This document shows positions 7,278 to 44,769 of a stretch of 44,769 nucleotides of DNA, piece after piece. How positions within the stretch are numbered: the stretch's first letter is position 1; each line of letters opens with the position of its first letter. The position numbers and the translations under genes are program-made. The notes beneath the pieces were generated by a model, which was given only the letters and a program-made list of their open reading frames with translations, ran no database searches and was not told where the DNA came from. This DNA comes from a virus. The stretch covers positions 1 through 44,769 of the IMG/VR virus record IMGVR_UViG_3300046727_000507. The stretch is one strand, 5' to 3'.

Positions 7278-10200
7278 TACACGCGCGACGCCAGGATCGT
7301 GATGCCGATATCGGCGAGCGTCGCATCCTGCGTCGCGGGAGCGACCATCTGCATCACGTCGCCGATCGCCAGCGAGCCGCCGGCGCCGGCCAGGGTGGCG
7401 CTGGTGTTGGTGGCGCTGGTGATGGTGACGGTGCCCAGTGCCGTCGTGGTGCCGCCGGAGATCTTGTTCAGCGTGAACACCGCATTCCCGGTCGCCTTGG
7501 TGGTGTCATACGCCACCGCGCCCGCGAGCGCCGCCGGCACGGTGATCGCCATTGCCATCGGCACGTTGACCACACTGCTGCCCGGTGGCTTGCCGGCGAA
7601 CGGGAAGCTGATCGGCAGTTGCTGCACCTCGGTGGGCAACGCGCTATAGGGCAGCGGGCCGGTGGTCGAGGAGTCGGTGATCAGACCGAAGCCGGCCATC
7701 GCGGCCAGCAGGCTGGTGACTGCGGGGATGCCGCCCTGCACACCGGTCACGGTTTGCTTGGCGATCGGGGTGGCACCATTGAACCCCAAGCGCGCGGTGC
7801 TGCTCATATTGATCTGCAGACCGCCGTTGGTGCTGGACGAACCATAGATCGCGGCGGGGGATGTCGAGGTGGCGCCCGGCAGCAGCAGCAGGTTGTTGCC
7901 GCCAGGGGGTGCCGCGACATTGAATCCGCCGCCATTAACCTGCACGACACCGGACCCGCTCGGCGCGAGCACGACGTTGTCGCCCGCTGTCGCACCCGGA
8001 GTGATCTGCAGCGCGTCGTTGGTGCCGACGGTGCCGAAGCTATGCGGGCCGACACCGGTCGCGGTCAGGTTGTCGGCGACGGTGAGGCCGCCGGTGCCGG
8101 TGGTTGCCAGCGTGACGTCGTTGGTTCCCGCTGCACCCGGCGTGACCGTCAGCGCGTTCTGCGCCCCGGCGCCGACCGACAACGTGCCGGTCTGGGTGGC
8201 ATTGGTCACCGTCAGCGCGCCGATCTGCGCGTTGTTGGTCACCGTCAGCGCGGTGCCAGCAGCAGCGAACGTGGTCGCGTTCGGCACCGTGCCACCGGTG
8301 AAGCCGGTGGGGGGAACGCCGGAAATCACCCCGGTGCCGTCGATGACGATCGTGGTGCCGTCGATCTTCACGCCACCCAGCACGGTGGTGCTGGCGATGG
8401 GCAGCACATAGTTGCCGCCGGCAATCGAGGAGTTGGTGATCAGTCCGTAATTGGCCAGCGAGGTCAGCAGGCTGGCGAGCGCGGTGCCGTCACCCTGGTT
8501 GCCGCTGACGGTGGGCTTGGCGATAGGGGTGGTGCCCAAGAATCCCAAGGGCCGCGTGTTGGCGCCTACCATCAGGCCGCCAGTGCCGGATGGCGTGATG
8601 CCGGCATAGGCCGAGCTGCTGGCACCGGACACCAGGGAGACGGTGTTGTTGGTGAGTGTGAGACCCACCGTCAGTGAGGTGGTGATCGGCGGCAGGATCA
8701 GGCCGCCGGTGCCGGTCTGCGCGATCGATATCGCGCCGGCGGCGGTGGACCCCGGGGTGATCTGCAGCGCGTTGTTGGTGCCGCTCAGGCCGAACACGTG
8801 GCCCCCTGGCCCGGTGGCGACGACGTTGCCGGTGGCATTGACGTTGCCCTGCGACGTCAGGCTCGGGACGGTGACGGTGCCGGTGCCGCCGACGGTGAGG
8901 CCGCCGGTGCCGGACGGCGTGAGTGTGACCGGGTTGGTTCCCGCCGCGCCCGGCACGATCGTCAGGTTGTTGGTCGTGCCAGGAGTGTTGGTGATGACGA
9001 AATTGCCGGCGCGGGTGAAGCCGGTGCCGAGCGTGACGGTGACATCGCCGCCGATGCCGGAGGTCAGCGCATTGCCGGCGGTCAGCGTGATCGGGCCGCC
9101 GCCGAGCTTGGAGTTGCCGGCCTTCAACGCGATCGAAGCCGGATTGCCGCTGGTCTGGCCGGACGCGTCACCGGTGGTCAGGCTTATGCCGCCGGTGCCA
9201 GTTGTCGCGGTGGTGCTGGTAATGGTTGATATACTTACTCCGCCGGAAGACGTCGTGCCGGCGCCGGATTGTATAGTTATAGCTCCGGAAACTACCGCGT
9301 TCGTGGTTTGTAGAAAAACAGTACCGCTGGAACCGGTGGTGCTGCCGCCGCTTTTAAGGGTTACCGAACCACTATTAAATCCGGTGCCGCTGCCGCTCTG
9401 CACTAATAGGTTTGCGGTGTTGGTGGTGGCGCTGTCAGCCGTCTGGATGGAGAGCTGGCCACTCGCGCTGGTGACGATCGTCGCGCCCTGCGTCGCGGTG
9501 CCGCCGGGGGTGATGGTGACGCCGTTCACTGGCGCGGCGCCGACCTGCAACGTGCCGGTCTGCGTGGTGTTGGTGACGGTGACCGCCGTGCCGGTCGCGG
9601 TGAAGGTTGTGGCGTTGGGAACGGTGCCGCCGGTGAAGCCACCGCCGCTCGATGCCACGGCGGCGGTGACGTAGGCGGTGGTGGCCACCGTGGTGTCGTT
9701 GATGGTGGGCGCCGGTGTCGGCGTGAACACCGGCCCGGCAAACGAGAACCCGCCGGTGCCAAACTGCGCGAAGGTGATCGGGTTGGCCAGCGCCGGCCCA
9801 GGCGCCACCGTCAGGTAGTTGTTCGTGGTGCCGGGGGCTTTGACGACGAAATTGCCGCCCTTGCCGGTGCCGAAGCCGGTGCCGAGCGTGACGGTGAGGT
9901 CACCGCCATTGGCGTTGCTCGCGGTGGCCACACCGGTCAGGAGCTGGATGCCCGCTGCGTCCCGCCCGCCGGTGCTCTTGCCGACCGTCAGGACGATCGG
10001 GTTGCTGGCACCGAAGGTGCTGGAGGCGTCGCCGGTGCTGATGTTGACCGCGCTGCCGACCGTCCCGCCGCCGGTGCCGATGGTGACCGCACCGGTGACC
10101 GACGGATCTGTGCCGGTGCTGGTGCCGGTCTTCAGGGTGAGCGTGCCGGTTGCGGTGGTGGAGTCAGGCGTGGTGATGCTGATGGCGCCGCTGGTGGCAC

Positions 10201-12880
10201 CGGCGGCGGTGCCGCCGGTCAGCGTGATCGCGCCACCCGGCCCGGTTGCGCCACCCGGCCCGCCCCTGATGGTAACAGCGCCGCCGGCGCCGGTGCCGAA
10301 GCCGCCGCCCGAGGTGACGGTGATATCGCCGCCGGCGGCGTTGCCGGTGGTGGTGGCATTGCTACCGAGGAGCGAGAGGGGGCCACCGCGCTGGCCGCCC
10401 GAGGAAGAGCCAACCTGCAAGTAGATGCCGTTGGAGCCGGTTGTGGCGGTGCTTGAATGCGTGCCCGTGGTAAGCTGGATGTTCTGCGCCAGCGACGCGT
10501 TGCCGGTGGTCAGCGAGATCGCACCGCTCATGCCAAAGCCGGTGGTGGGTCCTCCTCCGGTTTTCAGGACCACACCGCCGGCCTGCCCATTGGCGGCGCT
10601 CGCGGTTCCGGTTTGCAGCGTCAGGGTGCCGGTGACGGGGCCATCAGGCGAAGCCAAGGTCAGCGGGCCGGTGCCGGCGCTGCCCCCGGCGGCGGCGCCG
10701 CTGGTCATTGTAATGCCGCCGCCATTTCCTGTCGCACCGCCGGCACCAGCATTGACGGTGACATTGCCGCCCTTGCCGGTGCCGAAGCCGCTGCCGATCG
10801 TCACCGTCAGGTCGCCGCCGAGGCCGTTGCCTGTCGTGGTGGCGCTGCCGGTGGTGAGCGTAATGGCACCGGCATTCTTGCCGCCGGTCGTGTTGCCAGT
10901 CCGCAAAGAAATCGGCCAAGTGTTGGCGGTAGTGTGTGAATGCGTGCCGGTGAACAGATTAATACCGTTCACATTACCTGAACCGGTAGATATATTTATT
11001 GTGCCACTAATACCAGTGCCGGTTCCATTACCGGTTGTCAGATTGATGTCACCGGTTTGCACGCCCGACGCGCCGGTTTTCAGCGTGATGCCGCCGGACG
11101 AACCGGTCACGCCATCCGGTGTTAGCAGCGTGAGCGCGCCCGAGTCGGTGGTTGACGCGATCGTCGCGGCGCTGACCGTCGTCGCCCCCGGCGTGATCGT
11201 CACGGCATTGTTGGCGCTGGTGCCCACCGCGAGCGTGGTGAAGGCACCGGTGTTCGGCAGCGCGCTGCCGATCGGCGGCGGTGAGGAGAACGCCCCAGTC
11301 AGCCCAGCGCCGGAGATCTGCCCGGTGACCGCGAGCGTGCCGCCGAGGGTGGTGTTGCCGGTGGCGCTCAGCGTGCCGTTGATCGATACCCCGCTGGCAC
11401 TGATCTGCGTCCAGTAGGCGCTACTGTTACCGACCGGCGCGCCGGTGGCATCCGCCGGATAGAACGAGATCTGCGAGCCGAGATTGGTGCCGTAGATTCC
11501 CGAGCCTGAGCCGGAGCGGAAGAATGCGATCCCTGCCGCATCCGTCGGATCGGCGAGCGATGACCAGTTCAGCAGCAGCCGCGCCGAGCCTGACGTCGCC
11601 GCGTTGGCCAGCGTGGTGAGCGGGCCGAGCTTAGTGTTGTTGGTCACCGTCAGCGCGGTGCCGGTCGCGGTGAACGTCGTGGCGTTCGGGACGGTGCCGC
11701 CGGTGAAGCCCACGCCGGGGGCCGAGATCACGCCGGCATTGATGGTCACCGTGGTGCCGTCGATCTTCACGCCACCGAGCACCGTGGTGCTGGCGGTCGG
11801 CAGCACGTAGCCGCTGGTCCCGGCGGCGATCGCGGCGGTCACGTAGGCCGTGCTGGCGACCTGGGTGGTGTTGGTGCCGGGTGCCGCTGTCGGCGCCGTC
11901 AGCACACCCGTGACGGCCAGCGTGCCACTGACGGTGGCGTTGCCAGTGATCTGCACCACGCCGGCAGGCGTGCCGGTGCCGGGCTGCAGCACGATATTGC
12001 CGGAGGGTCCGCCGGTGTTTTGATTGCCGGTCGAAATGGTAACCGCGCCGGTCGCCCACGGCCCAGACGGCACGGTGCCGGTCGTGATGAGAACCGGACC
12101 AGACGAAGATGTGGCGTTGCCGGTGCCGGAATAGAGGGAAATCCGGCCACCCAGTCCTGCACTACTCGACCCGGCTACCATCATCACGCTAGGAGACACG
12201 GCACCGGTGGTGGCGGCCCCCTGGAATACAAGCGTGCCGACGTAACTGACGGTCTGGTTGCTGGTCTGGGTGAGGTTGATCGTGTTGGCGAAGGTCGCGA
12301 TGCCGCTGACGCTCAGCGCGCTGAACGCGCCGGTCGACGGATTGACGAGGCCGATCGGCGTGCCGGTGAGGCCGTTGGCCACCGACAGGGTGTCCATCAG
12401 GAAGGCGGACCCCTGCACGACGAACTGGCAGCCGACGGTGATCGTGCCGGTGCCGCCGGCGCCCTGGTCGATCGTGCCGCCGGGTAGATGCAGGTTGAGG
12501 CCGGTGATGTTGCCGGAGGCCTGCACGGTGGCGCTGTAGACGCCGCCGCTGACGTGCAGGTCGCCGACCACGTTACCGGTCAGCAGCGTAGGCGCGGGGG
12601 TCCAGTCGTGGTTGAGCCGGCAATAAGGTGTGCCGTCCGATGGCGCGTCGGGGATGCCGCCGCCGGCGCCGCCGACGCGCGCGTCGACATAGGCCTTCGA
12701 CGCGGCGTGCAGGTCGAGCGACGGCGATTGGCCGAGGGTGAGGTTGCCGACCACGCTCGGGTTGGTGAGCACACCGCTCTCGGCGTCGACCTTGCCGGCG
12801 AACAGCCGGTTCCAGTCGTCGGCCAGCGGCACGTAGTCGGGATAGAAGTTGGCGCTGCTGTTGGGAATGACATCGCTCAT
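7277..12880 (-). CDS. Giant Gly/Thr/Ser-rich tail fibre
   Basis: I chose ATG 12880 (1867 residues): it overlaps the upstream stop as ATGA and follows GGGGAGAACGCC. The N-terminus (about residues 1-60, with [19 protein letters not shown]) resembles virion-attachment domains of tail fibres. The shaft repeats fibre motifs: [18 protein letters not shown] three times, [14 protein letters not shown] twice, [11 protein letters not shown]-like twice, and a [15 protein letters not shown]-like unit at least four times. Almost the whole protein is Gly/Thr/Ser/Val, predicting a long beta-helical or triple-stranded shaft. The C-terminal 150 residues are less repetitive and may hold the receptor-binding tip. 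No chaperone gene is evident beside it. Confidence 0.82.
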
Positions 12881-13287
12881 GGCGTTCTCCCCTGGCCGAT
12901 GCCGATTGCCTGGATGATGAACGGCCCGGTCCCGGCGATCGGCCCCAGCACCATGAACGAACCCGCCACCGCCTCGCACTGCACCTGACCGGTGACCACG
13001 CGGTCGCGCGTCACCGCGATGAACGCGGTGGCATACTGCATCAGCGGCACCGACAGCGCCGCGCTGGTCAGCTCGGCCTTGAGCAGCGGCAGCGGCGGGG
13101 TCTTGCCGAGGATGTCCTCGAAATAGCGCACGCCCTTGGAGGTGTCATAGTATAGCTCACCGTTGAATAGACGGATCGCACTAGCAACGTCCTGCGCGAT
13201 CGAGTAAGGCTCAGCCGCGACGGCGATGTTGCCGAACGCGTCGAGCACGAGGTCCCATGTCAGTGTATCTAACAACAGAGTCTGCAT
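12877..13287 (-). CDS. Baseplate wedge protein, gp25 / Mu gp46-like
   Basis: The 136-residue protein starts at ATG 13287, which overlaps the stop of the upstream S74 fibre gene by one base (TGATG). The first 85 residues show the lysozyme-like gp25 fold signature seen in many myophages: a beta hairpin ([15 protein letters not shown]), an acidic helix ([18 protein letters not shown]), and [18 protein letters not shown], followed by a helix ending in ALSVP. gp25-type proteins join wedge to sheath and start sheath polymerisation. The C-terminal third ([19 protein letters not shown]) is an extension. Being sandwiched between two fibre genes is unusual but the match is good. Confidence 0.72.
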
Positions 13288-15194
13288 CAACCACCCCGTA
13301 ACTTGGCCACCTCGGCATCCAGCTCCTTGATCGCGTTGAGCATGGCATAGATCAGCGGCGTCTGGTCGAGGCCGCGCATGTCGGTCAGCTGCAGGTCGCC
13401 GACCACCGCCTCGGGTATGACGTGCTCGACATCCTGCACGCTGACACCGACGAACGGGCGCTCTGGCACGGTGACGTCCGGCGGTGCCATCTCCTGGCGG
13501 TAGGTGTAATAGCGCGGCGTCAGTTGCCTGACTTCGGCCAGCCCACCGGTATAGACATCACCGATGGTCTTCATTCTCTCGTCGGAATAAGTATACCACT
13601 GCCCGCCGCCATACTTCCAGGCACCCTGGGTCCACAGAAACATATCGCCGTCTTCGGCGCTGTTGAGGCGCGGATAGGTCAGCTTCATCACCGGCTTGCC
13701 GTTGCGTATCCAGGTCAGGTCACCGGCGAAGTTTTGGCCATCGCCCGAGTCGCTGCTCAGCCAGTCGAAGTAATATCCGCTATTGGCACCGGAGAACTGC
13801 AGGCGGCGGACGTTGCCGCCGGTGGTCAGGTAGAAGTCTCCCAAATTGCCGATATAGACCGGGCCGCGCGAGAAGAGATCGCCGGCAGCGAGCTGGCCGG
13901 CGACATCGGCGTTGCGCCCGACGGTCAGATCCAGAGATACGCCAGCCGAGGCGCAAGTGACGTTGCCACTGACCGCGACCGCGCCGCCGGTAAACGCGCT
14001 GGTCGCGTTGATGTTGCCGGTCGAGTTGATGTAGCCACCGGTGATCGTGCCGGCGGCGGCGATGTTGCGCTGGGCGGTGAGGTCGAAATTGGCATTGAGC
14101 GAGCCGTTGACCTGCACGTTGCCGTCGATCTGCGCCGAGCCGGTGTCATGGATGTATGCGGTGGTGATGCTGCCGTTCACCACGAGGTTGACGTCGATCT
14201 GCGCCGAGCCGGTGCTGTGAATCCATAAACCGACCAGCGCACCAAGTGCGGTGATGTTGCCGTTGGCGATGATCGAGCCGTCGATCTGCACGTTGCTGGT
14301 GCCGTGGATGGGGCCGACGGTGATGCTGCCGGCGCTGACCGATGCGGCGGTGACGGTGCCGTCGATAGTGGCCGCGCCATGCACGATGGCGCTGCCGTTG
14401 ACCGTCAGGTTGCCGGTGCTCGCCGCGCCGTAGACCGTCAGCGTGCCGGCCTGCACGCCGAGGTTAATGGTGGCATCGCCGTGGCTGGTCAGCGAGCTGG
14501 CAGAGATCGCGCCGCCGGCGGTGATGTCGTGGACATTGGTGATGTTGCCGGTGTTGTCCACCGAGAAGATCTCGGCGGTATAGGCATCGTTGATCAGCGC
14601 GAAGGTGCCATTGTAGACGCGCAACCATTTCTTCGGACCCAGCACGGTGGTCCTGCCGTCGGCCTGGATCGTGTTGCCGGCGAACGCGATCTGCGCGCCC
14701 AGCGAGGTGTTGGTGGCCGGCGCGGCGGCGGTGACCGTCAGGCCCGGAACGATGCCCTTGCCGGAGGCGCTCACGTCGGGGAACACCGGCGTCTGCCAGC
14801 CGCCGCCCCCGGTGTCGGGGTTGGACATATTGTTGTTGGCGGTCGACTGCCAGACCAGATAGGGCGTGACGTTGGAGCCGATGCGCGCCTCGGCGGGATA
14901 GCCGCCGATCTGGCTCTGGAACAGCGGATCGAGCCGCACCGGCCCGCCCGCCTGGAACCAGCGATCCCACTCGGTGATCTGCTTGATCACGCCGTTCAGG
15001 TCGGCGCCCGACGGTGGGATGCCGCCCGCCGAGACCGGGGTGAAGTTGAGCGGAACGAAGCCATCGACAAACGACGCGGCACCATTGACCGCGCCGATCT
15101 GCGAGGCATTGGGCACGGGGTGGACGAACCCGGTCTTGGCGCCCGACGCCCAGGGCGTCGGGATCTTCAGCGGCAGGTTGGCGACGCGATCCAT
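13287..15194 (-). CDS. Tail fibre with C-terminal S74 intramolecular chaperone
   Basis: I chose ATG 15194 (635 residues) because GGAGG lies just upstream; longer in-frame starts overlap the previous gene. The N-terminal ~150 residues form a virion-attachment region (PLKIPTPWASGAKTGFV, then PPSGADLNGVIKQITEW). The middle is a shaft with repeats of the type TGSAQIDGNVQVNGSL. The C-terminal ~99 residues, from YSDERMKT (S537), match the endosialidase-type peptidase S74 chaperone: the Ser-Asp cleavage position, GGLAEVRQLTPRYYTYR, the FVGVSVQDVE segment and a final helix (MLNAIKELDAEVAKLRG). This domain trimerises the fibre and is then cut off autocatalytically. It overlaps the wedge gene by one base. 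Confidence 0.88.
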   Translation of the reverse strand: MDRVANLPLKIPTPWASGAKTGFVHPVPNASQIGAVNGAASFVDGFVPLNFTPVSAGGIPPSGADLNGVIKQITEWDRWFQAGGPVRLDPLFQSQIGGYPAEARIGSNVTPYLVWQSTANNNMSNPDTGGGGWQTPVFPDVSASGKGIVPGLTVTAAAPATNTSLGAQIAFAGNTIQADGRTTVLGPKKWLRVYNGTFALINDAYTAEIFSVDNTGNITNVHDITAGGAISASSLTSHGDATINLGVQAGTLTVYGAASTGNLTVNGSAIVHGAATIDGTVTAASVSAGSITVGPIHGTSNVQIDGSIIANGNITALGALVGLWIHSTGSAQIDVNLVVNGSITTAYIHDTGSAQIDGNVQVNGSLNANFDLTAQRNIAAAGTITGGYINSTGNINATSAFTGGAVAVSGNVTCASAGVSLDLTVGRNADVAGQLAAGDLFSRGPVYIGNLGDFYLTTGGNVRRLQFSGANSGYYFDWLSSDSGDGQNFAGDLTWIRNGKPVMKLTYPRLNSAEDGDMFLWTQGAWKYGGGQWYTYSDERMKTIGDVYTGGLAEVRQLTPRYYTYRQEMAPPDVTVPERPFVGVSVQDVEHVIPEAVVGDLQLTDMRGLDQTPLIYAMLNAIKELDAEVAKLRGG

Positions 15195-15204
15195 GCAGCC
15201 TCCA

Positions 15205-16251
15205 TCATTGGACGGTCCCGTTCGCGCGCACGCTGCCTGCGCCACGGATCGGCACGCTGAATCTGGTCGAGCTGCTGGCATGCACGCCGCCACGCCCGTC
15301 GATCATCGCGAAGGCCAGCACCCTGCGCTGGATCGAGGCGTTGGCGCTCAGGCTGCCCACGCCGCCGATGCCGGCGCGGACCTGCGGCGGACCCACGCCG
15401 CGCATGGTGCCGACGCCGTCGATGCGCGCCGCCGCCGCCAGCTTTTGGCCCAGCAGCGGCACCGCATTCGCCGCCACCCCGCCACGCCCCGCCATACCAC
15501 TGCCGCGCGCGGCGACCTGGGTGGTGGCCGAGGCGCGCACCGTAGCGACCCCCCGGAGCGTCACCGGCAGGCCGACCACGTCGGCGGTGGCCTGCACGCC
15601 ACCGATGCCGCCGATGACCGAGCCGACATGGTAGGGCGCGGCGGTGCTGGGGTTGAACGAGTAGGTGACCGAGACGCCGGTCGGACGCGGGATGACGCCG
15701 GACTGCGAGATGATCGCCGCCGTGACCGGGGTCGGTTGGAACTCAAAGATGTAGCTGATCGACATATCCTGGTTGTCGACCACGTAAGCCCGGCCCTGCG
15801 AGGCGAACAGGTTGATCAGGATCTGGTTGATCGACGGGATCGAGCCGTTGGTGATGTTGAACATCGCCTTGGCCAGGATCAGCGTGCGATAGCCCTCGTC
15901 GTTGAGCACGTAGTTCGCGGTGAGCGGCTGGTTGGAATAGAAGATGCCGCCGCCCTGCGCTGCGGTGGGCGCCACCCATGACGTGTTGAACGGCCACGCC
16001 GATTGCACGGTCGCCTCATTGAACCCCCAATAGGGGTCGGTGGTCTGGATCTTGAGCACCCGGCCCACCGCGACGATGCGGCCCCAGACGTCGAGGCCGT
16101 AGCCCCGCGCGGTGTCGACGTTCCAGATGAAATTATAGAAGTCCTCCAGATCCTGCTTCGGGTCGATCCACTGATTGATGGCGTAGAGCAATGTCTGGAT
16201 GGTCGGCGACTGATTGTATTGACTGATAACGGTGCCTTGCCAATTGATCAC
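15205..16251 (-). CDS. DUF2612 baseplate protein with C-terminal GVRA-type repeats
   Basis: The start is GTG 16251, overlapping the gpJ stop as GTGA. The first ~200 of 348 residues fit the DUF2612 baseplate family (tail protein I role): SPTIQTLLYAINQWIDPKQD, YGLDVWGRIVAVGR, and an LNDEGYRTLILAKAMFNITN block close to the family core. From about residue 210 the protein changes to six or seven copies of a ~20-residue repeat (GGIGGVQATA, GRGGVAANA, GGVGSLSANA, DGRGGVHASS, GAGSVRANG). This is the same repeat type that fills the 874-residue protein at 36383-39007. The repeat tail is extra to the family and probably makes a projecting arm. Confidence 0.8.
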   Translation of the reverse strand: MINWQGTVISQYNQSPTIQTLLYAINQWIDPKQDLEDFYNFIWNVDTARGYGLDVWGRIVAVGRVLKIQTTDPYWGFNEATVQSAWPFNTSWVAPTAAQGGGIFYSNQPLTANYVLNDEGYRTLILAKAMFNITNGSIPSINQILINLFASQGRAYVVDNQDMSISYIFEFQPTPVTAAIISQSGVIPRPTGVSVTYSFNPSTAAPYHVGSVIGGIGGVQATADVVGLPVTLRGVATVRASATTQVAARGSGMAGRGGVAANAVPLLGQKLAAAARIDGVGTMRGVGPPQVRAGIGGVGSLSANASIQRRVLAFAMIDGRGGVHASSSTRFSVPIRGAGSVRANGTVQ

Positions 16252-17714
16252 GGCGCCGAAACCAGTGCGATGGAGATGTTGGCCGCCGACAGGACTGGCG
16301 CGTGGGCAACGCCGACCGCCACGTCGTCCAGGGTCGGTATCATGGAGAACATCGCCTCAGAGGTAATCGCCGGGGTCGGCGCCATGTTGAGGTTGTAGGT
16401 GCCGACGCCGCCGGTGCCGGTGCCAAGCGAGACGATGCGGGTGCCGTCCATAACGACGTGAGCAGAGTCCACCGGGGCAGTAGCAGCCACGGTTTGCCCG
16501 ATGGCGATGGCGCCGGTGGTCATGGCGGAGACGGTCATCACGGTGCCGCTGATCGCGGCGGTGAACTGCGCCGCCGGTGCCACGCTCGATCCCAGCTTGA
16601 TCGACACGAGCTGCACCCACGGGCCAAGCCCGGCGACCGCCGCATAGTAGCGCGAGGCGAACACCGTCGAGCCGATCCTGGCGCGCGAGCCGCCGTCGGC
16701 ACCGCTCCACGCGTTCAGCACTACGTTCTGCACCTGGATCAGCGCGTCCTGCGGGACCTGCACGCTGTTGATCAGCGTCACCAGCATGACGAAGGTCTGC
16801 GGCGCCGCGTTCTGATAGGTGATCGGGTAGCTGGGTGCGGGCGGCGAGTAGCCGCCGTTGGTGTCATACACCGTGATCGTGGTGTTGCCCGCCATGTTGC
16901 AGCCCGGCGCCTTGCGGGTGAAGATCGCATTGGCGATGTCGGCGCCGATACCACCCGAGACGCACACATAGAGCGAGTGCGGCTGCAGCGTGACACCGTC
17001 CACGGTGACCGCCGAGCTGGTGAAGTTTTCCGTGACATAGGCGTCGAGCACGTCGTTGACGTTCAGCACGGCGCCCAGCACCGAGGCCAGCATGCCCGCC
17101 GAATTGCCGGCCACCGAATTGAAGCGCCGGCGTTCGAACTGCGCGCGCGTCTCGACGTCCTGGCCGACCACGCCATCGGCGTTGTTGATGATGGCGTCCC
17201 AGCCGGGAATGACGTTGTAGACCCTGTTCAACGAGCCGGTCGGACACGAGATCGGCCCCATCACGTTACATTCGAATGGCACCGTCGCGGTGCCGTCGGC
17301 GCCGATCACGCCCTGCGCGGTCGAGGTATAGAAATTGCCGTCCTTCGCCAGCGCCATCACGCCGACCGGGATGACCACGCCTTGCAGGCCGATGCAGGTC
17401 GCCTGCACCGTGGTCGGCAATGCCGGATAGCGGGTCAGGAAATAGATGCGACCGATGCCGTCCTGCATGCGGCCTTGCGAATAGGCCGGGTCGACGTTCT
17501 GCGTCAGCAGCAGGAACTGATCGTTCTTGTCCGAGATGATCGCCGCCTCGGTGGTGGCGAGCTGACCCTGCGGGGTCTCCAGTGCAGGGTTCAAGGCGCC
17601 GCCGAAGCAGGCGTTCAGATCGGCCCGCACACCCTTGAGGATGTCCTGTTCGGTCGGCAGGAGAAATCCGGTGTCAGTCCATCGTGGGCGCGGAACACTT
17701 GTTGTGCCACTCAC
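16248..17714 (-). CDS. Baseplate J-like protein
   Basis: The 488-residue protein starts at GTG 17714, four bases after GGGAGG. Diagnostic features are TEQDILKGVRADLNACFGG near the N-terminus, the ATTEAAIISDKNDQFLLLTQ helix, PAYSQGRMQDGIGRIYFLTR, and the later DVETRAQFERRRF block: the order expected for baseplate J/gp6-like wedge proteins. About 75 residues near the C-terminus (AISGTVMTVSAMTTGAIAIG through GTGTGGVGTYNLN) form a small beta module also seen in the plug protein here (GSLAVGHTI...GTQGTYALN). It works in the baseplate wedge with the DUF2612 protein and the plug. Confidence 0.87.
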   Translation of the reverse strand: MSGTTSVPRPRWTDTGFLLPTEQDILKGVRADLNACFGGALNPALETPQGQLATTEAAIISDKNDQFLLLTQNVDPAYSQGRMQDGIGRIYFLTRYPALPTTVQATCIGLQGVVIPVGVMALAKDGNFYTSTAQGVIGADGTATVPFECNVMGPISCPTGSLNRVYNVIPGWDAIINNADGVVGQDVETRAQFERRRFNSVAGNSAGMLASVLGAVLNVNDVLDAYVTENFTSSAVTVDGVTLQPHSLYVCVSGGIGADIANAIFTRKAPGCNMAGNTTITVYDTNGGYSPPAPSYPITYQNAAPQTFVMLVTLINSVQVPQDALIQVQNVVLNAWSGADGGSRARIGSTVFASRYYAAVAGLGPWVQLVSIKLGSSVAPAAQFTAAISGTVMTVSAMTTGAIAIGQTVAATAPVDSAHVVMDGTRIVSLGTGTGGVGTYNLNMAPTPAITSEAMFSMIPTLDDVAVGVAHAPVLSAANISIALVSAP

Positions 17715-17744
17715 ATGGACCTCCCTTACGCCATGTGGGCGTTG

Positions 17745-18305
17745 CTATGTGGGGGCAAAGTAACCGAGGAAATACCGCGTGTTGAGTTCGGTCCAGTTGG
17801 GGTCCTCGGTGCCCTGACTATCCCAGAACGCCAGATCGCCGGTGAACCCGAGATAGGCGTCGCGCACGATCTTGCAGCGATCCAGTGCCAGCACGCCACC
17901 GATGATCAGATTGCCGTCGCGCCCGAGATCGATGTAGAGGCCGGTGGTGCGCTGATAGACGTTGATGTTGCAGTTTATGCCGTTCAGGCTGATCGTCAGG
18001 GTCTGCGCCGGCACCGCCAGCAACGGCACGACATATCGCGTCGTCGCGGGCACCAGCAGCGAGGCCTGAGCCAGATCCTCCGCACCCGACGTCATCGGCG
18101 CGGTAGCGACGCCGAGCGGCAGGCGCCGGTTGAGCGCGTAGGTGCCCTGGGTCCCCTGGGCGGTGCCGAGTGCGGTGATGCGGACATCGGACGGCACGTG
18201 ATCGCCGTTGATGGTATGGCCGACCGCCAGCGAGCCGGCCTGCACATCGCCGACCAGCAGCGTGTTGCCGTCGATGGAACCGGTGAAGCGCGACAGGATG
18301 ATCAT
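17745..18305 (-). CDS. Baseplate plug protein (DUF6983 / Pam3 gp18-like)
   Basis: ATG 18305 overlaps the upstream stop by one base (TGATG). Of 186 residues, the N-terminal ~65 form a beta module (FTGSIDGNTLLVGDVQAGSL ending GTQGTYALN) resembling the one inside gpJ. The rest matches baseplate plug proteins: QTLTISLNGINCNINVYQRT, a strand pair (GLYIDLGRDGNLIIGGVLAL), and the conserved end GFTGDLAFWDSQGTEDPNWT followed by TRYFLGY. Plug proteins close the tail tube at the baseplate before injection. The fused N-terminal module is an addition to the usual ~110-residue protein. Confidence 0.8.
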   Translation of the reverse strand: MIILSRFTGSIDGNTLLVGDVQAGSLAVGHTINGDHVPSDVRITALGTAQGTQGTYALNRRLPLGVATAPMTSGAEDLAQASLLVPATTRYVVPLLAVPAQTLTISLNGINCNINVYQRTTGLYIDLGRDGNLIIGGVLALDRCKIVRDAYLGFTGDLAFWDSQGTEDPNWTELNTRYFLGYFAPT

Positions 18306-19330
18306 CAGAAGAAAAACGATGTCGGCGGCACCGTTGTGCCGTCCTGTGGTGGCACCGGCAGTGGTGGAGCGGTCTGAGTTGGTGCGTGCGGATGCGAAGC
18401 GTCTGGCATGTTGGCCGGCGGCGGCGGCGTGGTGGCATCCGTGCGCGTCGGCATGTTGGGCCTGATCGGCTGGAACGGTCCAAAATTGGGATCGGATTCG
18501 ATGGGAAGGTGCAGATCCTCCGGCTTAACCTCCTTCGGCTGCACCGAACCAACATTGGTGGACGCCGCGCCGGTCGGCGACTTGCCTGACGTGTTGTCGG
18601 TGAATGTCGCGCCGGCGCTGATGCGAACCTCCTGCACCCAGACATCCACCACCAGCAGGTTCAGCCCGCGACGGCTCTCGCGGCTATACTCCATGTGCGT
18701 CAGGTTGGCCTGCGGATAGATCGCCTCTGGCGTCACCACGACATACATATCCAGCGACGCCACCGCGCGCTCAAGCTGGGCGAGGAACTCGGTGCGTTGC
18801 ATCGTGCCGCTGCCGATCGCGAACGAGATGCGGATGTCGAAGGGGACCTGCACCTTGTTGTAGGACGCGAAGGCGCCGCGCTCGATCGGGAAATCCGCGA
18901 TCTTCATTTCGTGGCGGTAGTCCACCTTGATCACGCTGTCCCAGTTCGCGACCTCCTGCATGTTCTTATCGAAGATGCCCCATATCGGCTTGCTGAACAG
19001 CGCGCCCGGTTGGTCCTCGGTCATGGGCGCCACCAGCGCGGCGCTGAGTGCCATGCCGTAGGGGCTGACGTCGCCCGCTAGCGGCCCGCTGATGCCGGGG
19101 GCGTTGACGTTGATGCCCTGGGCCATGCCGCCGGCCCCTGGTGTGATACCGGAGAACGGCAGGCCGAGGCCGGCGGATGCGTTGATGTCGCCGGCGCCTT
19201 GGGCGATGCCGATGACGTTGCCGAAGCCGCCCTGTAGCGGCGGCACACCGGGGAATTGCAGCACGCCAGGAGCGCCTGCGGTGTTGAACGATCCGTCGGG
19301 ATTGAAGCCATAGACCGGGACCAGCGGCAT
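18305..19330 (-). CDS. Dit-like phage tail protein
   Basis: The 341-residue product has a Gly/Pro-rich N-terminal ~115 residues (many GI, GLG and PG turns), followed by a Dit-like core: FSKPIWGIFDKNMQEVANWD, then SVIKVDYRHEMKIADFPIE, RGAFASYNKVQVPFDIRISF, and RTEFLAQLERAVASLDMYVV. Dit-like proteins form the ring joining the tail tube end to the baseplate. From about residue 270 it becomes a Pro/Thr-rich tail (TPPPPANMP...PVPPQDGTTVPP) ending SFFF. The gene begins one base after the tape measure stop, and its own stop overlaps the plug start. Confidence 0.8.
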   Translation of the reverse strand: MPLVPVYGFNPDGSFNTAGAPGVLQFPGVPPLQGGFGNVIGIAQGAGDINASAGLGLPFSGITPGAGGMAQGINVNAPGISGPLAGDVSPYGMALSAALVAPMTEDQPGALFSKPIWGIFDKNMQEVANWDSVIKVDYRHEMKIADFPIERGAFASYNKVQVPFDIRISFAIGSGTMQRTEFLAQLERAVASLDMYVVVTPEAIYPQANLTHMEYSRESRRGLNLLVVDVWVQEVRISAGATFTDNTSGKSPTGAASTNVGSVQPKEVKPEDLHLPIESDPNFGPFQPIRPNMPTRTDATTPPPPANMPDASHPHAPTQTAPPLPVPPQDGTTVPPTSFFF

Positions 19331-36386: not shown

Positions 36387-39007
36387 GCGGCCACGCTCCG
36401 CTTGGTGGCAGGTAGATGCACGCCATACAGAGCCACGCGGTCACGCGGTATGAACGGATCAGGCGCGATCCCTCCCTGGCCGGCGATGCGCGCCACGGCG
36501 TGGTGGATGAACTGCTGATCGCCGTCCGCTATGACACCACCCTGGCCGGCCAGCCGCGTGCGCGCGTGCAGCTCGCTATGGGCCTGCAGCCGCACCCGAC
36601 CGGCCCCGGCGATCCTGGCCGCCGCCGGCAGCGCGACGCCCGGATGCGCCCTGAGCGCCGCCCGACCATTGATCCTGGCGCCGCCGGAGGTCACCCATCT
36701 GCCGGATGGCCGCACGCCGCCGGCACCAACGATGCGCGCCGCGACATGCCACGGCGCCTTGATAGCGACCCCTTGCACGTGACCGGCCCCGGCGATCCAG
36801 GCCCGCACGCGCGCCAGGAGGCGGCTGGACGCCCGTATGCCGCCGGCCCCTGCGATGACAGCGTGGGCTTGGCGCGCGGCCCCAGGCGCGGCGCGTAGCC
36901 CGCCGGTGCCATGAATTATCGCACTCGCTACCCAGGTCGTGCGCTTCTGGCCGGCAGCGCGCACCGCGCCCGCGCCGTGAATGGCGGCAGATCCCGCCCA
37001 GTGTATGCGCGGTTGGCCGGAGGCACGCACCGCACCGGTGCCGTGGATGGCGGCAGACGCTGCCCAGGTCGTGCGTTTCTGGCCGGAGGCACGCAACCCG
37101 CCGGTGCCGTGGATGGCGGCAGATCCCGCCCAGTGTATGCGTGGTTGGCCGGAGGCGCGCACCCCGCCGGTGCCGTGGATGGCCGCCGCCGTGTGCAGCA
37201 CCGCCCTGCCGATCGCGCGGACCGCACCGGTGCCGTGCAGCGCCGCCGTCACCTGTTTCGGCACGCCCCGCACCAGGGCGATCGCGCGGACCGCGCCCGT
37301 GCCGCCGAGCAGCGCGGCAGCGTGCTGGGCAAACTTGACGATGGCGGTTGGCCGCACCGCGCCGGTCCCGGCGATATGGGCCGCCGCTGCCAGCTCCCGC
37401 GTGGTGGTGGCGCGTGCCGTGCCGGCCCCGGCGATCCGCGCTGCCGCCGGCTGGGTCACCTTGTTCGGCGCGTTGGAGGCGCGCAGCCCGCCGGCCCCAG
37501 CGATCACCGCCGTCGCGTGGTAGGCGCCCCGGAAGATGCCGTCCGCCCGCACCGCGCCGGTGCCATGGATGGTGGCGGTGAGGTGATAGGTCTGGTGGAC
37601 CTGCGTGGCGGCGGCACGCAGCCCGCCGGCGCCGTGGATGATCGCCGCCGCGCCGCGCGCGATCGTCGGATTGGCGGTCAGCCGACCGACCCCGGCGACG
37701 GCGCCGCCGGTGTGGTGGAACGAGTCGATGTCGGCTTCGACATAGCCGCCGGCATCGATCTGTGCCCGCGCCCAGGCCAGCGGCGTGATCGTGGCGCGCA
37801 GTGCGCCGACCCCGACGATGCGCGCCTGGGTCCGCGCCAGCACCCAGGCCGAGACGGCGAAGCCACCCCGGCCACCGAGCACCGCGACCGGCTGATAGGT
37901 ACGCGCACGCACCCCACCGGTGCCGGCGATGCGGGCCGCCGCGCTCTTGAGCGAGGCACCCGCCGAGGCGCGCAGCCCACCCGTGCCGGCGATCGCGGCC
38001 CGCGCCGCGCGCAGCACCCGCGTGTCCGCCACGCGGCCACCGAGGCCGGCGAACTTGGCGCTGGCCGGTCGCAGCGCCACCGCCGCCGCGTAGACGCTGC
38101 CGAGGCCGCCGAGCCGCGTGTTGGAAACCGGCACCCGCCCCGAGGCGTTCGCCGTGGCCGAACCGGTGCCCGGGATCAGCGCCGAGGCCGGCAGACGCAC
38201 GTTGAGCAGCGGGGTGATCTTGCCTTCGCCGGCGATCAGCGTCCCGCCATAGGCCTGCCCTGGCACGGCAGCGGTGGCGCGCAGCGAGGTCGCGCCATCG
38301 ATCTCGGCCTGCGCCAGCACTTGGCCGCGCGTTGCGGCGCGCACGCCGCCGGTGCCGTTTATCTGCGCCGCCACCGGCACCAGCGCGCTGCCACCCGCCA
38401 GCAAAGGACGCGTGGTGATCTGCGGCGATCCCAGCGGGGGCAGGATCAGCGGCGTGCGGAACAGGCCGCGCTCCAACTGAAAGCCACCCAGCCGCAAGGT
38501 GATGTTGACGTCACCGGCCCGGACAAACACCGAGAAGTAACAAAGCCCAATGCTGGTGCCACCGGCGCCGACGGTGCCCGAGCCGCTGTAGAGCACCAGC
38601 GGATGGCCGGGCGGCGCGACGTTGAGTGTGATGTTCCCGGTGGTAATGGTGACGTTATAGGCGATTTGCCCGATATTAGTTAGATCACCATCGGGCATGC
38701 CAATATAGGCTGTGGCGGTAAAAGTATCGCCATGGGCTACGATATTATAGCTGCTCGGCTCGACGTAGATAAACAGGTTTCCGTCACTGAAGATCGTGCC
38801 GAAATACTGGATGTCGACGTAGGCTATGCCGCTCGCCGCGTCGGTGCCGACGCCGACCACCTGTTGCGAGAGGCCCGGCAGCAGCGGACTGGACCAGAAG
38901 GTCGGCATACTGCCGCCGACCACCGCGCCGTCACCCCGGGGATTGCGTATCCAGTTGGTCTTGCCCCCGCGTCCTGAGATCAGGGCTTGGGCGTCGACGG
39001 TCGCCAT
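36383..39007 (-). CDS. Repeat fibre: jelly-roll-like head plus ~31 GVRA repeats
   Basis: The 874-residue protein starts at ATG 39007. Residues ~18-205 form a beta module (RNPRGDGAVVGGSMPTFW ... RLGGFQLERGLFRTPLILPP) homologous to module 2 of the protein at 3774-7277 (PNPRGEGAVVG ... RLAGIQIELG). From ~215 to ~850 I count about 31 copies of a ~22-residue repeat with core I-[HA]-G-[TA]-G-[GA]-[VL]-R-A and a variable, often aromatic or basic spacer. Repeats 20-24 are nearly identical in pairs. The regular spacing predicts a long beta-solenoid or needle-like fibre. The same repeat ends the DUF2612 protein. Its position among head genes suggests a head fibre. Confidence 0.78.
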   Translation of the reverse strand: MATVDAQALISGRGGKTNWIRNPRGDGAVVGGSMPTFWSSPLLPGLSQQVVGVGTDAASGIAYVDIQYFGTIFSDGNLFIYVEPSSYNIVAHGDTFTATAYIGMPDGDLTNIGQIAYNVTITTGNITLNVAPPGHPLVLYSGSGTVGAGGTSIGLCYFSVFVRAGDVNITLRLGGFQLERGLFRTPLILPPLGSPQITTRPLLAGGSALVPVAAQINGTGGVRAATRGQVLAQAEIDGATSLRATAAVPGQAYGGTLIAGEGKITPLLNVRLPASALIPGTGSATANASGRVPVSNTRLGGLGSVYAAAVALRPASAKFAGLGGRVADTRVLRAARAAIAGTGGLRASAGASLKSAAARIAGTGGVRARTYQPVAVLGGRGGFAVSAWVLARTQARIVGVGALRATITPLAWARAQIDAGGYVEADIDSFHHTGGAVAGVGRLTANPTIARGAAAIIHGAGGLRAAATQVHQTYHLTATIHGTGAVRADGIFRGAYHATAVIAGAGGLRASNAPNKVTQPAAARIAGAGTARATTTRELAAAAHIAGTGAVRPTAIVKFAQHAAALLGGTGAVRAIALVRGVPKQVTAALHGTGAVRAIGRAVLHTAAAIHGTGGVRASGQPRIHWAGSAAIHGTGGLRASGQKRTTWAASAAIHGTGAVRASGQPRIHWAGSAAIHGAGAVRAAGQKRTTWVASAIIHGTGGLRAAPGAARQAHAVIAGAGGIRASSRLLARVRAWIAGAGHVQGVAIKAPWHVAARIVGAGGVRPSGRWVTSGGARINGRAALRAHPGVALPAAARIAGAGRVRLQAHSELHARTRLAGQGGVIADGDQQFIHHAVARIAGQGGIAPDPFIPRDRVALYGVHLPATKRSVAA
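36981..37244 (-). repeat. 132-bp tandem DNA repeats within the fibre gene
   Basis: The sequence atggcggcagatcccgccca begins at 36981 and again at 37113, exactly 132 bases (44 codons, two 22-residue repeats) apart, and most flanking bases also match. Half-unit (66-base) copies with more changes lie between. The end coordinate is two unit lengths and is approximate. This is the least diverged part of the ~31-repeat tract. Confidence 0.75.
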
Positions 39008-42278: not shown

Positions 42279-43088
42279 TTATTCGAAACCCTCCAATATG
42301 ATCCTGCTTGTGCATCTGCAGTTAATTTCGAAACCTGGGTGCGTCCATCGGCCCTCTAAATATGCACCGTCCGCCACGATGTAAATCGGACCCTTTGCAC
42401 CAGGGCTGTGCTCGCCGCGACTGAAGCTCAAGTGCTCGGGCCTGAAGTGTCCAGGCGCGGTCACGTTCGAATGCATCCACCGCGCCCTCTTGATCCCAGC
42501 CTGCATTTGGCGCGCCCGGGTGATAGCGCTACCCATCTTGCTATTCTGATCCCGGGCGATGAAGGCGGCGCGCTTGAGCGGCACGTCGAACTGCTCGTGC
42601 AGCTCGCGCGTCATGGTGCGCAGATCCGAGCCTTTCTGCACGTTGCGCATCACGATGCCCTCGACGCGCTGGAGGTGTTCGGCGGCGATCGAGCGGATCA
42701 GCCCGACATTCTCCTGCACCGCGCTGTCCATGATCGCCTGCACCTGGGGCGAGACCTTGAACTCGACGGTCCAGCCGGCGTCATCGAGTAGTTGCTTGAT
42801 GCGGTTGGTGGTGTGCTTCTCAGCCCTGCCGCCCCACTGGCCGGCGACGTCGGGCGCCAGTTCATCGAAGTGCGACTGCCAGCGGTGGCCAAGCTCCTTC
42901 ATCGTCGCCAGCACCCGCCCGGCGGCCACCGGGTCTTCCTCCCACCGCACGCCGAGCCAGTAGTCGAGCGAGTTGTTCATCCGGTCGACCGACTTGGTCA
43001 GCTTGCTGCGGTAGACCGCCGCGACCCCGGCGCTGGGGACGATCGGCGGCAGCACTTTCTTCTGGTCCTGCGGCGGCTGCTGCGCCAT
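42279..43088 (-). CDS. Head morphogenesis protein, Mu gpF / SPP1 gp7-like
   Basis: The 269-residue protein starts at ATG 43088 with GGGGGC upstream. Features: VDRMNNSLDYWLGVRWEEDP, a helical middle (SPQVQAIMDSAVQENVGLIR, then SIAAEHLQRVEGIVMRNVQK), FDVPLKRAAFIARDQNSKMG and the C-terminal signature WTHPGFEINCRCTSRI with its paired cysteines. These define the minor capsid protein family that joins the capsid near the portal. It normally follows the portal gene, which is absent here. Its last ~40 codons share the raised A+T content of the neighbouring endonuclease gene. Confidence 0.87.
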   Translation of the reverse strand: MAQQPPQDQKKVLPPIVPSAGVAAVYRSKLTKSVDRMNNSLDYWLGVRWEEDPVAAGRVLATMKELGHRWQSHFDELAPDVAGQWGGRAEKHTTNRIKQLLDDAGWTVEFKVSPQVQAIMDSAVQENVGLIRSIAAEHLQRVEGIVMRNVQKGSDLRTMTRELHEQFDVPLKRAAFIARDQNSKMGSAITRARQMQAGIKRARWMHSNVTAPGHFRPEHLSFSRGEHSPGAKGPIYIVADGAYLEGRWTHPGFEINCRCTSRIILEGFE

Positions 43089-43107
43089 GGCGCCCCCAAA
43101 GAATTAT

Positions 43108-43137
43108 CTTGACATCATGGGTCAAGACCATTATTTA
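43108..43137 (+). promoter_or_regulatory. Promoter/operator copy 1
   Basis: The 19-base palindrome CTTGACATCATGGGTCAAG (43108-43126) contains a perfect -35 TTGACA (43109-43114). After a 17-base spacer comes TATTTA (43132-43137) as -10. A transcript from about 43144 would serve the genes at 43177 and 43434. The palindrome's right arm lies in the spacer, where a dimeric regulator would block polymerase. It also lies 20 bases upstream of the leftward head morphogenesis start. Confidence 0.8.
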
Positions 43138-43176
43138 ATACGGGTAACCCCCTCCCAACCCCGAAAGGAGTTCCCC

Positions 43177-43431
43177 GTGACCTTCGACCCCGACAGCCTG
43201 CTCGGCGGCTACACCCAGGCCGAGCTTGAGGCAGCGTTCGCGCTGGTGGCGCCCAAGGATAACTGGAAGCTGCCGATCAACGCGAAGCTGCCCGGCAAGA
43301 CCACGCCGAGGGAGATCGACAAGATCGCGTTCGCGATCGGCTTCTTCACCGGCGGCGTGGCCACGTTCACCTTCGATGGCATCAGCTACGCCGTGACCGC
43401 GCCCGGCTACTACGCCGCTGTGGGGGCCTGA
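43177..43431 (+). CDS. Small phage accessory protein (84 residues)
   Basis: I chose GTG 43177 because AAGGAG (43165-43170) lies 6 bases before it; an ATG at 43087 in frame would start before the promoter. The protein reads TFDPDSLLGGYTQAELEAAF, then NWKLPINAKLPGKTTPREID, KIAFAIGFFTGGVATFTFDG and VTAPGYYAAVGA: an alpha/beta protein of a type I associate with small ORFs of unknown function in phages (NWK-x-PI, FFTG, GYYAA). It is in an operon with the 41-residue gene 2 bases downstream. Confidence 0.68.
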   Translation: MTFDPDSLLGGYTQAELEAAFALVAPKDNWKLPINAKLPGKTTPREIDKIAFAIGFFTGGVATFTFDGISYAVTAPGYYAAVGA

Positions 43432-43433
43432 CC

Positions 43434-43559
43434 ATGGTCAAGATCGTATTCAACAAACTGCTCGGCGGCTGGCTCGTGGTGCGCGGTCCGCACCACACGC
43501 CGCTGTCCGGCGTATTCCCCACCAAGGCTGCCGCCAAGGCATCGCTCGTCCGTAAATAA
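43434..43559 (+). CDS. 41-residue hypothetical protein
   Basis: A short ORF starts at ATG 43434, two bases after the preceding stop, and ends in TAA one base before the second palindrome. The sequence MVKIVFNKLLGGWLVVRGPH and HTPLSGVFPTKAAAKASLVR predicts a compact beta hairpin followed by a helix; GGW-x-VVRGPH-x-TPLSG resembles small phage proteins often found with such genes. It has no good ribosome site and is probably translated by coupling. Confidence 0.6.
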   Translation: MVKIVFNKLLGGWLVVRGPHHTPLSGVFPTKAAAKASLVRK

Positions 43560-43560
43560 T

Positions 43561-43590
43561 CTTGACTGCCCAGGTCAACATACATAAATG
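43561..43590 (+). promoter_or_regulatory. Promoter/operator copy 2
   Basis: CTTGACTGCCCAGGTCAAC (43561-43579) keeps the palindrome except for its last base. The -35 is TTGACT (43562-43567) and the -10 is TAAATG (43585-43590), 17 bases apart. The expected transcript start (about 43597) falls at the ATG at 43598, so the mRNA would be leaderless or nearly so. Confidence 0.75.
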
Positions 43591-43597
43591 TGGCGGC

Positions 43598-44116
43598 ATG
43601 GCAGATTACATCCACTACGTGGCCGTCAGCGGCGATTATGCGTTCTTCGGCCTGTCCGAGGACCCGGTCGCTGACGTGGCCACCATGCAGCGCGGCTCGC
43701 CCGTCCCGATCGATCTGGTCGCGGCCTGGGTGGTGCCGCCGGCGGAGCGTGCCGGCCTGAAGGACCGGCTCGATCGCAAATTCCGCCGCGCCCCGCATCG
43801 CGGCTACTGGGTCAAGGTGCCGGAGGACGAGGCGGTCGGCACGCTGCAGATGTTCGCCGCCTACCTGGGCGGCAAGCGCAAGAAGCTACGCATGCGACGC
43901 AGCCCCGAGGAGGCGCCGCAACCGATGCGCGCCAGGGCTGTGGTGACGCCACGCGGGCGCTACCCCACCGCCAAGGCGGCGGCAGAGGCCCACGGCATCA
44001 GCCGTCAGGCGGCCTGGGAGCGGGCCAATCGGCAGTCCCCCGGCTGGCGGTTCGAAGACGAGGATCGCCCACCGCCGGTGCGCGCTCGCCCTGGCCGGCC
44101 ATCGAAGGTCGCTTAA
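43598..44116 (+). CDS. Degenerate GIY-YIG-like protein with NUMOD-like C-terminus
   Basis: I chose ATG 43598 (172 residues) because it lies at the predicted transcript start; no ribosome site is seen upstream. Residues ~1-85 follow the T5orf172/MUG113 GIY-YIG layout: YIHYVAVSGDYAFFGLSEDP, VADVATMQRGSPVPIDLVAA, LKDRLDRKFRRAP, GYWVKV. The residues expected at the active site are changed: the Arg after the DP motif is replaced (DPVADV), the His of the E-x-x-x-H element is missing, and Tyr stands for Glu before WV. After a basic linker (GGKRKKLRMRRSPEEAP), residues ~118-155 (RGRYPTAKAAAEAHGISRQA, then WERANRQSPGW) resemble NUMOD1 DNA-binding repeats. It is likely a DNA-binding, catalytically dead derivative. 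Confidence 0.55.
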   Translation: MADYIHYVAVSGDYAFFGLSEDPVADVATMQRGSPVPIDLVAAWVVPPAERAGLKDRLDRKFRRAPHRGYWVKVPEDEAVGTLQMFAAYLGGKRKKLRMRRSPEEAPQPMRARAVVTPRGRYPTAKAAAEAHGISRQAAWERANRQSPGWRFEDEDRPPPVRARPGRPSKVA

Positions 44117-44122
44117 AACCCT

Positions 44123-44152
44123 CTTGACATCTTAGGTCAAGTGTGTTAAGAT
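44123..44152 (+). promoter_or_regulatory. Promoter/operator copy 3
   Basis: CTTGACATCTTAGGTCAAG (44123-44141) is a perfect palindrome arm pair. -35 is TTGACA (44124-44129), -10 is TAAGAT (44147-44152), spacing 17. It begins 6 bases after the stop of the previous gene and drives the gene at 44216 through a hairpin leader. Confidence 0.85.
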
Positions 44153-44155
44153 GGC

Positions 44156-44189
44156 TTCGCCGCCGGGAGGTGGATCTCCCGACGGCGAA
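44156..44189 (+). promoter_or_regulatory. 5' leader hairpin
   Basis: Bases 44156-44169 pair with 44176-44189 (13 of 14 pairs, one C-A mismatch) around a 6-base loop. With a transcript start near 44159 the hairpin would be at the very 5' end of the mRNA, 27 bases before the ATG. 5'-terminal stems protect phage mRNAs from decay in known cases; a protein-binding role is equally possible. Confidence 0.75.
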
Positions 44190-44215
44190 TGTTTGGTTCT
44201 TTGAGGAAGGTGAAG

Positions 44216-44698
44216 ATGAAGATAATCAACGGCAAGCCCGTTTGCAACCCCGTGCGCGCGATCAAGCTGCGCGACGTGGACCACCCGAAAACCGGCGGCA
44301 ACCGCTACTGCGGCCCGGCGGTCATCTCGGCGCTGACCGGGCTGGACACCGGCGAGACAGCGGCGCTGCTGCGCCACGTCACTGGCAAGCGCTCGATCAA
44401 GGGCACCAGCCACTGGTCGGTGCGCCGGGCGCTGGCGCTCTGCGGTATCGACACGCTGCCAAACGCGCGGGGCGACTTCCGCCCGACCCTGGCGCGCTGG
44501 CACCGCTGGGCACGTGAGGCCGGCCTGTTCGCCGATGACGCGGTCTGGCTGCTCGTCGCCGGCAACCACTGGCAGGCGGTCACCGCCCGCCGCTACGTGT
44601 GCGGCAGGATCGGCGAGATCGTGTCGATCCGCGACGAGCGGGTGAAGCGGCGCGCCAGGGTGGACGCCGCCTACCGGGTGACGCTGCTCCCGGCGTGA
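44216..44698 (+). CDS. Papain/C39-like cysteine protein
   Basis: I chose ATG 44216 (160 residues) because GAGGAAGGTGAAG lies directly upstream; an in-frame ATG at 44189 is part of the leader hairpin. The motif NRYCGPAVISALTGLDT (C32) at the start of a helix and LLVAGNHWQAVTARR (H118) form the Cys...His pattern of papain-fold peptidases such as C39; an acidic residue (for example D140 in SIRDE) could complete a triad. Between them a helical region carries SHWSVRRALALCGIDTL. It is not secreted. It may be a protease, peptide cyclase-like enzyme or inactive binder; I cannot tell which. A terminator follows 6 bases after the stop. Confidence 0.6.
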   Translation: MKIINGKPVCNPVRAIKLRDVDHPKTGGNRYCGPAVISALTGLDTGETAALLRHVTGKRSIKGTSHWSVRRALALCGIDTLPNARGDFRPTLARWHRWAREAGLFADDAVWLLVAGNHWQAVTARRYVCGRIGEIVSIRDERVKRRARVDAAYRVTLLPA

Positions 44699-44704
44699 CG
44701 GCAT

Positions 44705-44737
44705 GGGGCGATCCTTCGGGGTCGCCCCTTTTCTTTT
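44705..44737 (+). terminator. Rho-independent terminator with UUCG loop
   Basis: A 10-bp stem (44705-44714 with 44719-44728, one T-G pair) encloses the very stable tetraloop TTCG and is followed by TTTTCTTTT. It lies 6 bases after the cysteine protein gene and insulates it from the fourth promoter. Confidence 0.9.
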
Positions 44738-44748
44738 GGAGAAACTCT

Positions 44749-44769
44749 CTTGACATCTTTTGTCAAGAT
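44749..44769 (+). promoter_or_regulatory. Promoter/operator copy 4 (cut by window end)
   Basis: CTTGACATCTTTTGTCAAG (44749-44767) repeats the palindrome with its TTGACA -35 (44750-44755); the -10 would lie outside the window. A further rightward gene is therefore expected beyond the end. Confidence 0.75.

Follow-up and report, generated by a model that had tools for sequence, protein, structure and literature searches.

Palindromic promoters and a probable shared-operator early regulon in a soil myophage

The palindromic promoters of an uncultured soil phage probably form an early regulon with a shared operator. Nine copies of a promoter built around CTTGAC-N7-GTCAAG lie on one strand of the genome, all of them intergenic or at gene starts, and each opens a rightward gene or operon. 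The explanation that best accounts for the whole set, and that appears reasonably likely, is that these are early promoters for the host RNA polymerase carrying a common operator, to which a dimeric helix-turn-helix (HTH) repressor encoded by the phage would bind. The promoter family reaches beyond the cluster in which it was first noticed, and related phages carry other families of the same kind.

The window analysed here is the full 44,769 nucleotides of one IMG/VR record, and it makes up about half of a soil myophage genome of ~81 kb. Window positions 1-18421 are 100% identical to record G010:24776-43196, and the right end of the window continues in G001. Further overlaps join G001 to G011 (9.6 kb) and G011 to G010 (4.4 kb), again with 100% identity. 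By arithmetic from these overlaps, the pieces therefore close into a circle of ~81.3 kb. Its minus strand encodes a contractile-tail virion operon, in which PHROGs identify baseplate, sheath, tape measure, major head protein and protease genes. Elsewhere in the window, a 126-bp repeat occurs as two near-adjacent copies, 89% identical, within a long structural ORF (36926-37183). At 362-2672, an FkbM-type methyltransferase is lined up with two secreted-type proteins that have PEP-CTERM-like tails, an unusual cargo for a phage. Searches for Rfam and tRNA elements found none.

Seven of the nine promoter copies reside in a small-gene island that interrupts the late operon between the portal and MuF genes. 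This island reads in reverse to the operon that contains it; MuF adjoins it, and the portal gene lies further on. The remaining two (copies 8 and 9) are found upstream of the terminase, between its small subunit gene and an early rightward operon. A genome-wide search had been proposed by the first-pass annotation, and it bears out the association with genes: every copy is upstream of a gene, and the pieces covering the whole circle hold no further copies. Moreover, the top four hits of a whole-genome sigma-70 promoter scan, and five of its seven hits in total, contain the palindromic element.

Within the window, four CTTGAC-N7-GTCAAG palindromes had been annotated (Table 1). Three of them are exact (43108-43126, 44123-44141 and 44749-44767), whereas the one at 43561-43579 carries a mismatch (CTTGACTGCCCAGGTCAAC, with GTCAAC for GTCAAG) and is therefore not literally the claimed pattern. 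A first-order Markov model predicts 0.005 exact matches against the 3 observed. For sites with at most one mismatch, the corresponding values are 0.065 and 4, and the maximum among 200 simulations is 2; allowing up to two mismatches gives 5 sites, where dinucleotide shuffles average 1.1. Shuffles and simulations together rule out a chance origin of the palindromes.

Table 1. Features at the right end of the window (positions are those of the window unless a contig is named).
Feature	Position	Strand	Details
MuF-like head morphogenesis gene, left boundary of the island (late operon)	42279-43088	-	
Promoter copy 1, 31-bp dyad AAnnnTCTTGAC-N7-GTCAAGannnTT	43102-43132	+	-35 TTGACA 43109-43114; -10 TATTTA 43132-43137
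Small ORF, GTG start, AAAGGAG ribosome site	43177-43431	+	no family match
41-aa ORF	43434-43559	+	homologue 76% identical in the corresponding array of relative G004
Promoter copy 2, right arm GTCAAC (one mismatch)	43555-43585	+	-35 TTGACT 43562-43567; -10 ATAAAT 43584-43589
172-aa protein, GIY-YIG-like N-domain (predicted), C-terminal HTH and RPGRP tail	43598-44116	+	
Promoter copy 3	44117-44147	+	-35 TTGACA 44124-44129; -10 TAAGAT 44147-44152, TG ahead of -10
160-aa protein	44216-44698	+	relatives in Roseobacter phage CRP-901 and Erythrobacter phage XM05
Intrinsic terminator of unit 3	44705-44737	+	stem 44705-44728, 10-bp, plus T-run
Promoter copy 4, truncated by the window end	44743-44769	+	-10 TATATC in the overlapping contig, L004 8585-8590

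All four window copies precede a rightward gene, against the direction of the late operon, as had been annotated. The accompanying claim of a -10 box at 17 nt also holds, with a -10-like hexamer 17 nt past TTGAC(A/T) in all three complete copies. The best promoter among them is TTGACA-17-TAAGAT (44124-44152). By the E. coli consensus, copies 1 and 2 have weak -10 boxes, TATTTA and TAAATG. In the alphaproteobacterial register, copy 1 has TTATTT and copy 2 ATAAAT, which fit the form CTTGAC-N17-CTATAT (PMC2873474) better. This consensus is also the better fit for the family, the majority of whose copies read CTTGAC-N17-TTATNT. A bidirectional promoter was considered and rejected: both strands have -35-like arms, but the minus-strand -10 is missing in most copies.

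The case for an operator draws on an alignment of 20 promoter copies from three phages, namely this phage (9) and its relatives G004 (9) and G005 (2). AA at positions -5 and -4, CTTGAC and GTCA are invariant in 20/20 copies, and their spacing is fixed. The left arm doubles as the -35 box, and its conservation alone therefore proves nothing; for this reason, it is the right arm, together with the fixed spacing and the symmetry of the outer pairs, that carries the argument. GTCA is invariant inside the promoter spacer, where sigma-70 has no need of it. The dyad extends to 31 bp: centred on the palindrome, its outer six pairs agree in 77 of 120 cells, a score that no other tested axis reaches (runner-up, 60/120). 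Covariation of the outer arms copy by copy is not significant, with 530 of 5000 re-deals reaching the observed value. The earlier proposal of one repressor-type site, superposed on the promoters and answerable to a single regulator, is supported as a possibility by this symmetry and conservation.

In the second window unit, the 172-aa protein lacks the usual motif residues in its GIY-YIG-like domain, and a PDB fold search returned a weak Slx1 GIY-YIG match and nothing else. Its homologue in G004 is 54% identical and also lies downstream of a palindromic promoter. The start codon at 43598 is within ~10 nt of the -10 box (window 43584-43600), and the unit 2 mRNA is therefore predicted to be nearly leaderless; the G004 homologue of this unit has a similar layout. 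The start of the 160-aa protein was assigned from its ribosome site and homologues. By eye, this protein is papain/C39-like, with YCGPAVISALTG and GNHWQAV motifs, and a strong hairpin in the leader of its gene (44154-44190, about -25 kcal/mol, z = -1.8 only) is a possible attenuator. The terminator annotated for this last complete unit is genuine, with an RNA fold z of -4.5.

Island cargo has almost no matches in Pfam, PHROGs or NCBIfam, apart from one DUF7717. In the regulon, the cargo is mostly without family matches, and no anti-CRISPR gene was recognised. The portal protein (L009 10129-14022) bears a very long C-terminal extension with repeated DPSEHPRGQPENAGEFGPGGGG-like linkers, and a 272-aa island gene (L004 11014-11832, minus strand) shares this linker. 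The common linker suggests polymorphic domains that may be packaged in the capsid.

The promoter family and its layout are conserved in the closest relatives. G004, whose MuF and TerL are 75% and 90% identical to those of this phage, has its nine copies in the matching two places, six of them in the island and the other three upstream of the terminase. The two phages share several homologous island genes in the same order; other genes are replaced or missing, and the 160-aa, 441-aa and 595-aa proteins of this phage have no match in G004. In ~70%-identical relatives, the island is lacking at the portal-MuF site, where G007, G009 and L063 carry nothing but a long portal ORF and small ORFs on the same strand. 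Among 66 related loci collected with a TerL profile, the palindrome is present where TerL is at least 86% identical and the upstream region is available, and in no relative at or below 73%.

These comparisons qualify the description of the promoters and their genes as a moron-like array. Extra genes do stand between core genes in this phage and G004, and they are missing there in G007, G009 and L063, but the promoter is not independent of the regulons of the phage. Nor is the array self-contained, as had been proposed: it extends past the window to seven island copies, and copies 8 and 9 drive the early operon beside the terminase. Because the palindromic promoter also drives that operon, the set would be better described as the early regulon of the phage than as a moron array.

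More distant clades have repeated promoter families of their own. Four copies around AGTGGGTCA occur in G007/L104, with CATAAC or CATAAT as -10 boxes, and the early regions of L111/L118 and L140 have four copies each of TTGACATAGTGCGCCA and GGTTACCCAAAWTGGATAC, respectively. Another inverted repeat is present in three copies in the early region of L128, and the spacer element of the G007 clade shows no clear palindrome. Among L104, L111/L118 and L140, the layout is kept while the spacer element is replaced, which points to a changing phage-encoded regulator. A different repeated feature is seen in the early regions of L130, L135 and L123, where a ribosome-site leader (ACAGAAAGGAACA, ACAGAGGACACC and TTGAACAAAGGAC) precedes many start codons in the manner of start-associated sequences. 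In unrelated viral contigs, the 44 CTTGACATCTNNNGTCAAG sites examined group into a handful of repeated families; only 10 of the sites have at least 4/6 of a -10 at 17 nt, and no general operator class is claimed. One unrelated AT-rich contig, L021, has four to five TTGAC-N7-GTCAA-like palindromes, several with a TA-rich stretch at 17 nt.

The most likely candidate for the regulator, advanced tentatively, is a ~118-aa HTH protein with an Aca2/HigA-like predicted fold, encoded at G010:6251-6604. In each of the three palindrome-bearing phages (G010, G004 and G005), its gene lies 0.5-0.9 kb downstream of a copy of the promoter. Homologues are found in the G007, L111/L118, L140 and L114 clades. Motif families were seen in 4/5 clades with the HTH gene and in about 1/9 of those without it, a post hoc count on incomplete contigs (one-sided p about 0.02, calculated by hand). 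No motif family was detected in L114/L117, which have the gene, and L128 shows the reverse, a motif family and no HTH gene. The AlphaFold model displays a helical HTH domain, its first 60 residues having a pLDDT of about 90. In Foldseek searches with this model, HigA2 and Aca2 rank on top (probability ~1.0, Aca2 rmsd 1.3-1.5), with E-values of 0.06-0.2 that are weak, as is usual for a small domain. The protein has no match in Pfam, PHROGs or NCBIfam, libraries that may not model every Aca family, and these searches placed it in no known Aca family; a PDB sequence search with the HTH alignment gave nothing relevant. Other candidates are the 172-aa protein of unit 2, the sole regulator candidate in the window's own units, an XRE protein (G010:10041) and an RHH-like ORF near G010:22.7 kb.

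Together, these elements suggest how the regulon could operate. Host RNA polymerase would transcribe rightward, mostly small, non-structural genes from nine near-identical strong promoters, each with one two-fold-symmetric operator superposed on its -35 box and spacer. A dimeric phage HTH protein, itself a product of the regulon, would most likely bind this operator and block the polymerase, and all units would be turned off together after an initial burst. The small genes may have anti-host or anti-defence roles. A more far-reaching version of this scheme is doubtful. It holds that one Aca-like autorepressor and nine promoter-operators fire and then shut the whole early regulon, including a probable counter-defence island in the late operon, in a phage without detectable lysogeny genes. 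Sister phages would then have swapped operator-repressor specificity while retaining the layout, like temperate immunity types.

The same sites could instead be the operators of a lysogeny master repressor in a temperate phage, a CI- or MrpR-like protein keeping all units off in the prophage. Temperate phages do typically have operators dispersed over many promoters (SPbeta, PMC10516654; Cluster A, PMC6550527). The same operator sequence recurs here at nine promoters, as in a temperate immunity set, and the XRE protein has weak similarity to PHROG repressors. Against this, searches of the records covering the genome found no tyrosine integrase, serine (resolvase-type) recombinase, rve transposase or S24 repressor, although the controls matched. 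The genome records also yielded no CI-type repressor, leaving the set without a detected integration or lysogeny module, and a MuF profile search of genome contigs for a host confirmed no relative. With neither an integrase nor a CI-type repressor found, lysogenic silencing, part of the first-pass guess about these genes, is not supported. A lysogeny function is unlikely, and control by a master repressor is improbable.

Little probability attaches to a host transcription factor that binds the palindrome and ties the early genes to the state of the host. CTTGAC-N17-TTATAT is a normal form of the alphaproteobacterial housekeeping promoter (PMC2873474), and the unrelated marine-type contig mentioned above has similar palindromes at promoter-like positions. 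However, related phages retain repeated promoters and swap the spacer element completely, which a conserved host factor would not explain unless their hosts differ too. Equally hard to credit is a positive role for the spacer element, as a middle-promoter element for a phage activator or modified polymerase. In this phage as in the G007 clade, GGTCA does precede the -10 box by 10-11 nt, despite a different distance to TTGAC. Yet with a perfect consensus -35 box and an optimal 17-nt spacing no activator is needed, and an extended dyad around the -35 box is the usual form of a repressor site. That the palindromes serve cassette exchange as dispersed repeats or recombination seams, with a secondary promoter function, would fit the differing cargo and retained promoters and flanking genes of the two sequenced islands, but is very improbable given the constant orientation, the fixed 17-nt distance to the -10 box and the two copies outside the island.

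For the favoured reading, a shared operator under a phage-encoded repressor, the regulatory logic has precedents in acr-aca operons, the SPbeta SPBRE element and Cluster A stoperators. The earlier statement that no array of this form had been described was thus too strong, given the dispersed operators of SPbeta/MrpR and Cluster A and the early-promoter inverted repeats of acr-aca. phiC31, with its conserved inverted repeats, and P1, with its c1 operators, likewise have operators repeated at many of their early promoters; both phages are temperate and have known repressors, and their site sequences differ from the palindrome described here. A literature search found no description of this exact palindrome in phages.

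In SPbeta, one conserved element, SPBRE, lies in many intergenic promoter regions and is bound by MrpR (PMC10516654). The likeness lies in a single element shared by many promoter regions of one large phage. However, SPBRE is 15 bp long and serves lysogeny, and MrpR has a tyrosine-recombinase fold, whereas the present site is palindromic and no integrase was found in the phage. Cluster A stoperators are phage-wide repressor sites, many in number and mostly in one orientation, with a clade-specific consensus that tracks repressor divergence (PMC6550527). They resemble the present sites in number, orientation bias and clade-specific sequence. In contrast, a stoperator is an asymmetric site of 13 bp and in most cases lies outside promoters, while every site here is a dyad in a promoter.

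If the proposed regulon is real, its promoter signature would tag all early genes in these uncultured soil phages, and a motif search alone would yield candidates for takeover and counter-defence. Immunity-like operator divergence could then arise without lysogeny. With only a few small candidate regulators and sites, the idea is directly testable.

Acr-aca operons offer a further likeness. In these operons, strong early promoters contain inverted repeats to which Aca proteins bind, turning the promoters off (PMC9410906, PMC8434428). The phage described here shares with systems of the autorepressors Aca1-Aca10 a strong host-like early promoter, an inverted repeat within the core promoter, small genes, and a small gene for a candidate HTH repressor downstream in an operon, though outside the window's own units. 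Unlike acr-aca, it has neither a recognised anti-CRISPR gene nor a family match by sequence, and one motif serves nine units over ~81 kb rather than one operon. The on/off design of acr-aca would, on the favoured reading, be widened from a single operon to a genome-wide regulon.
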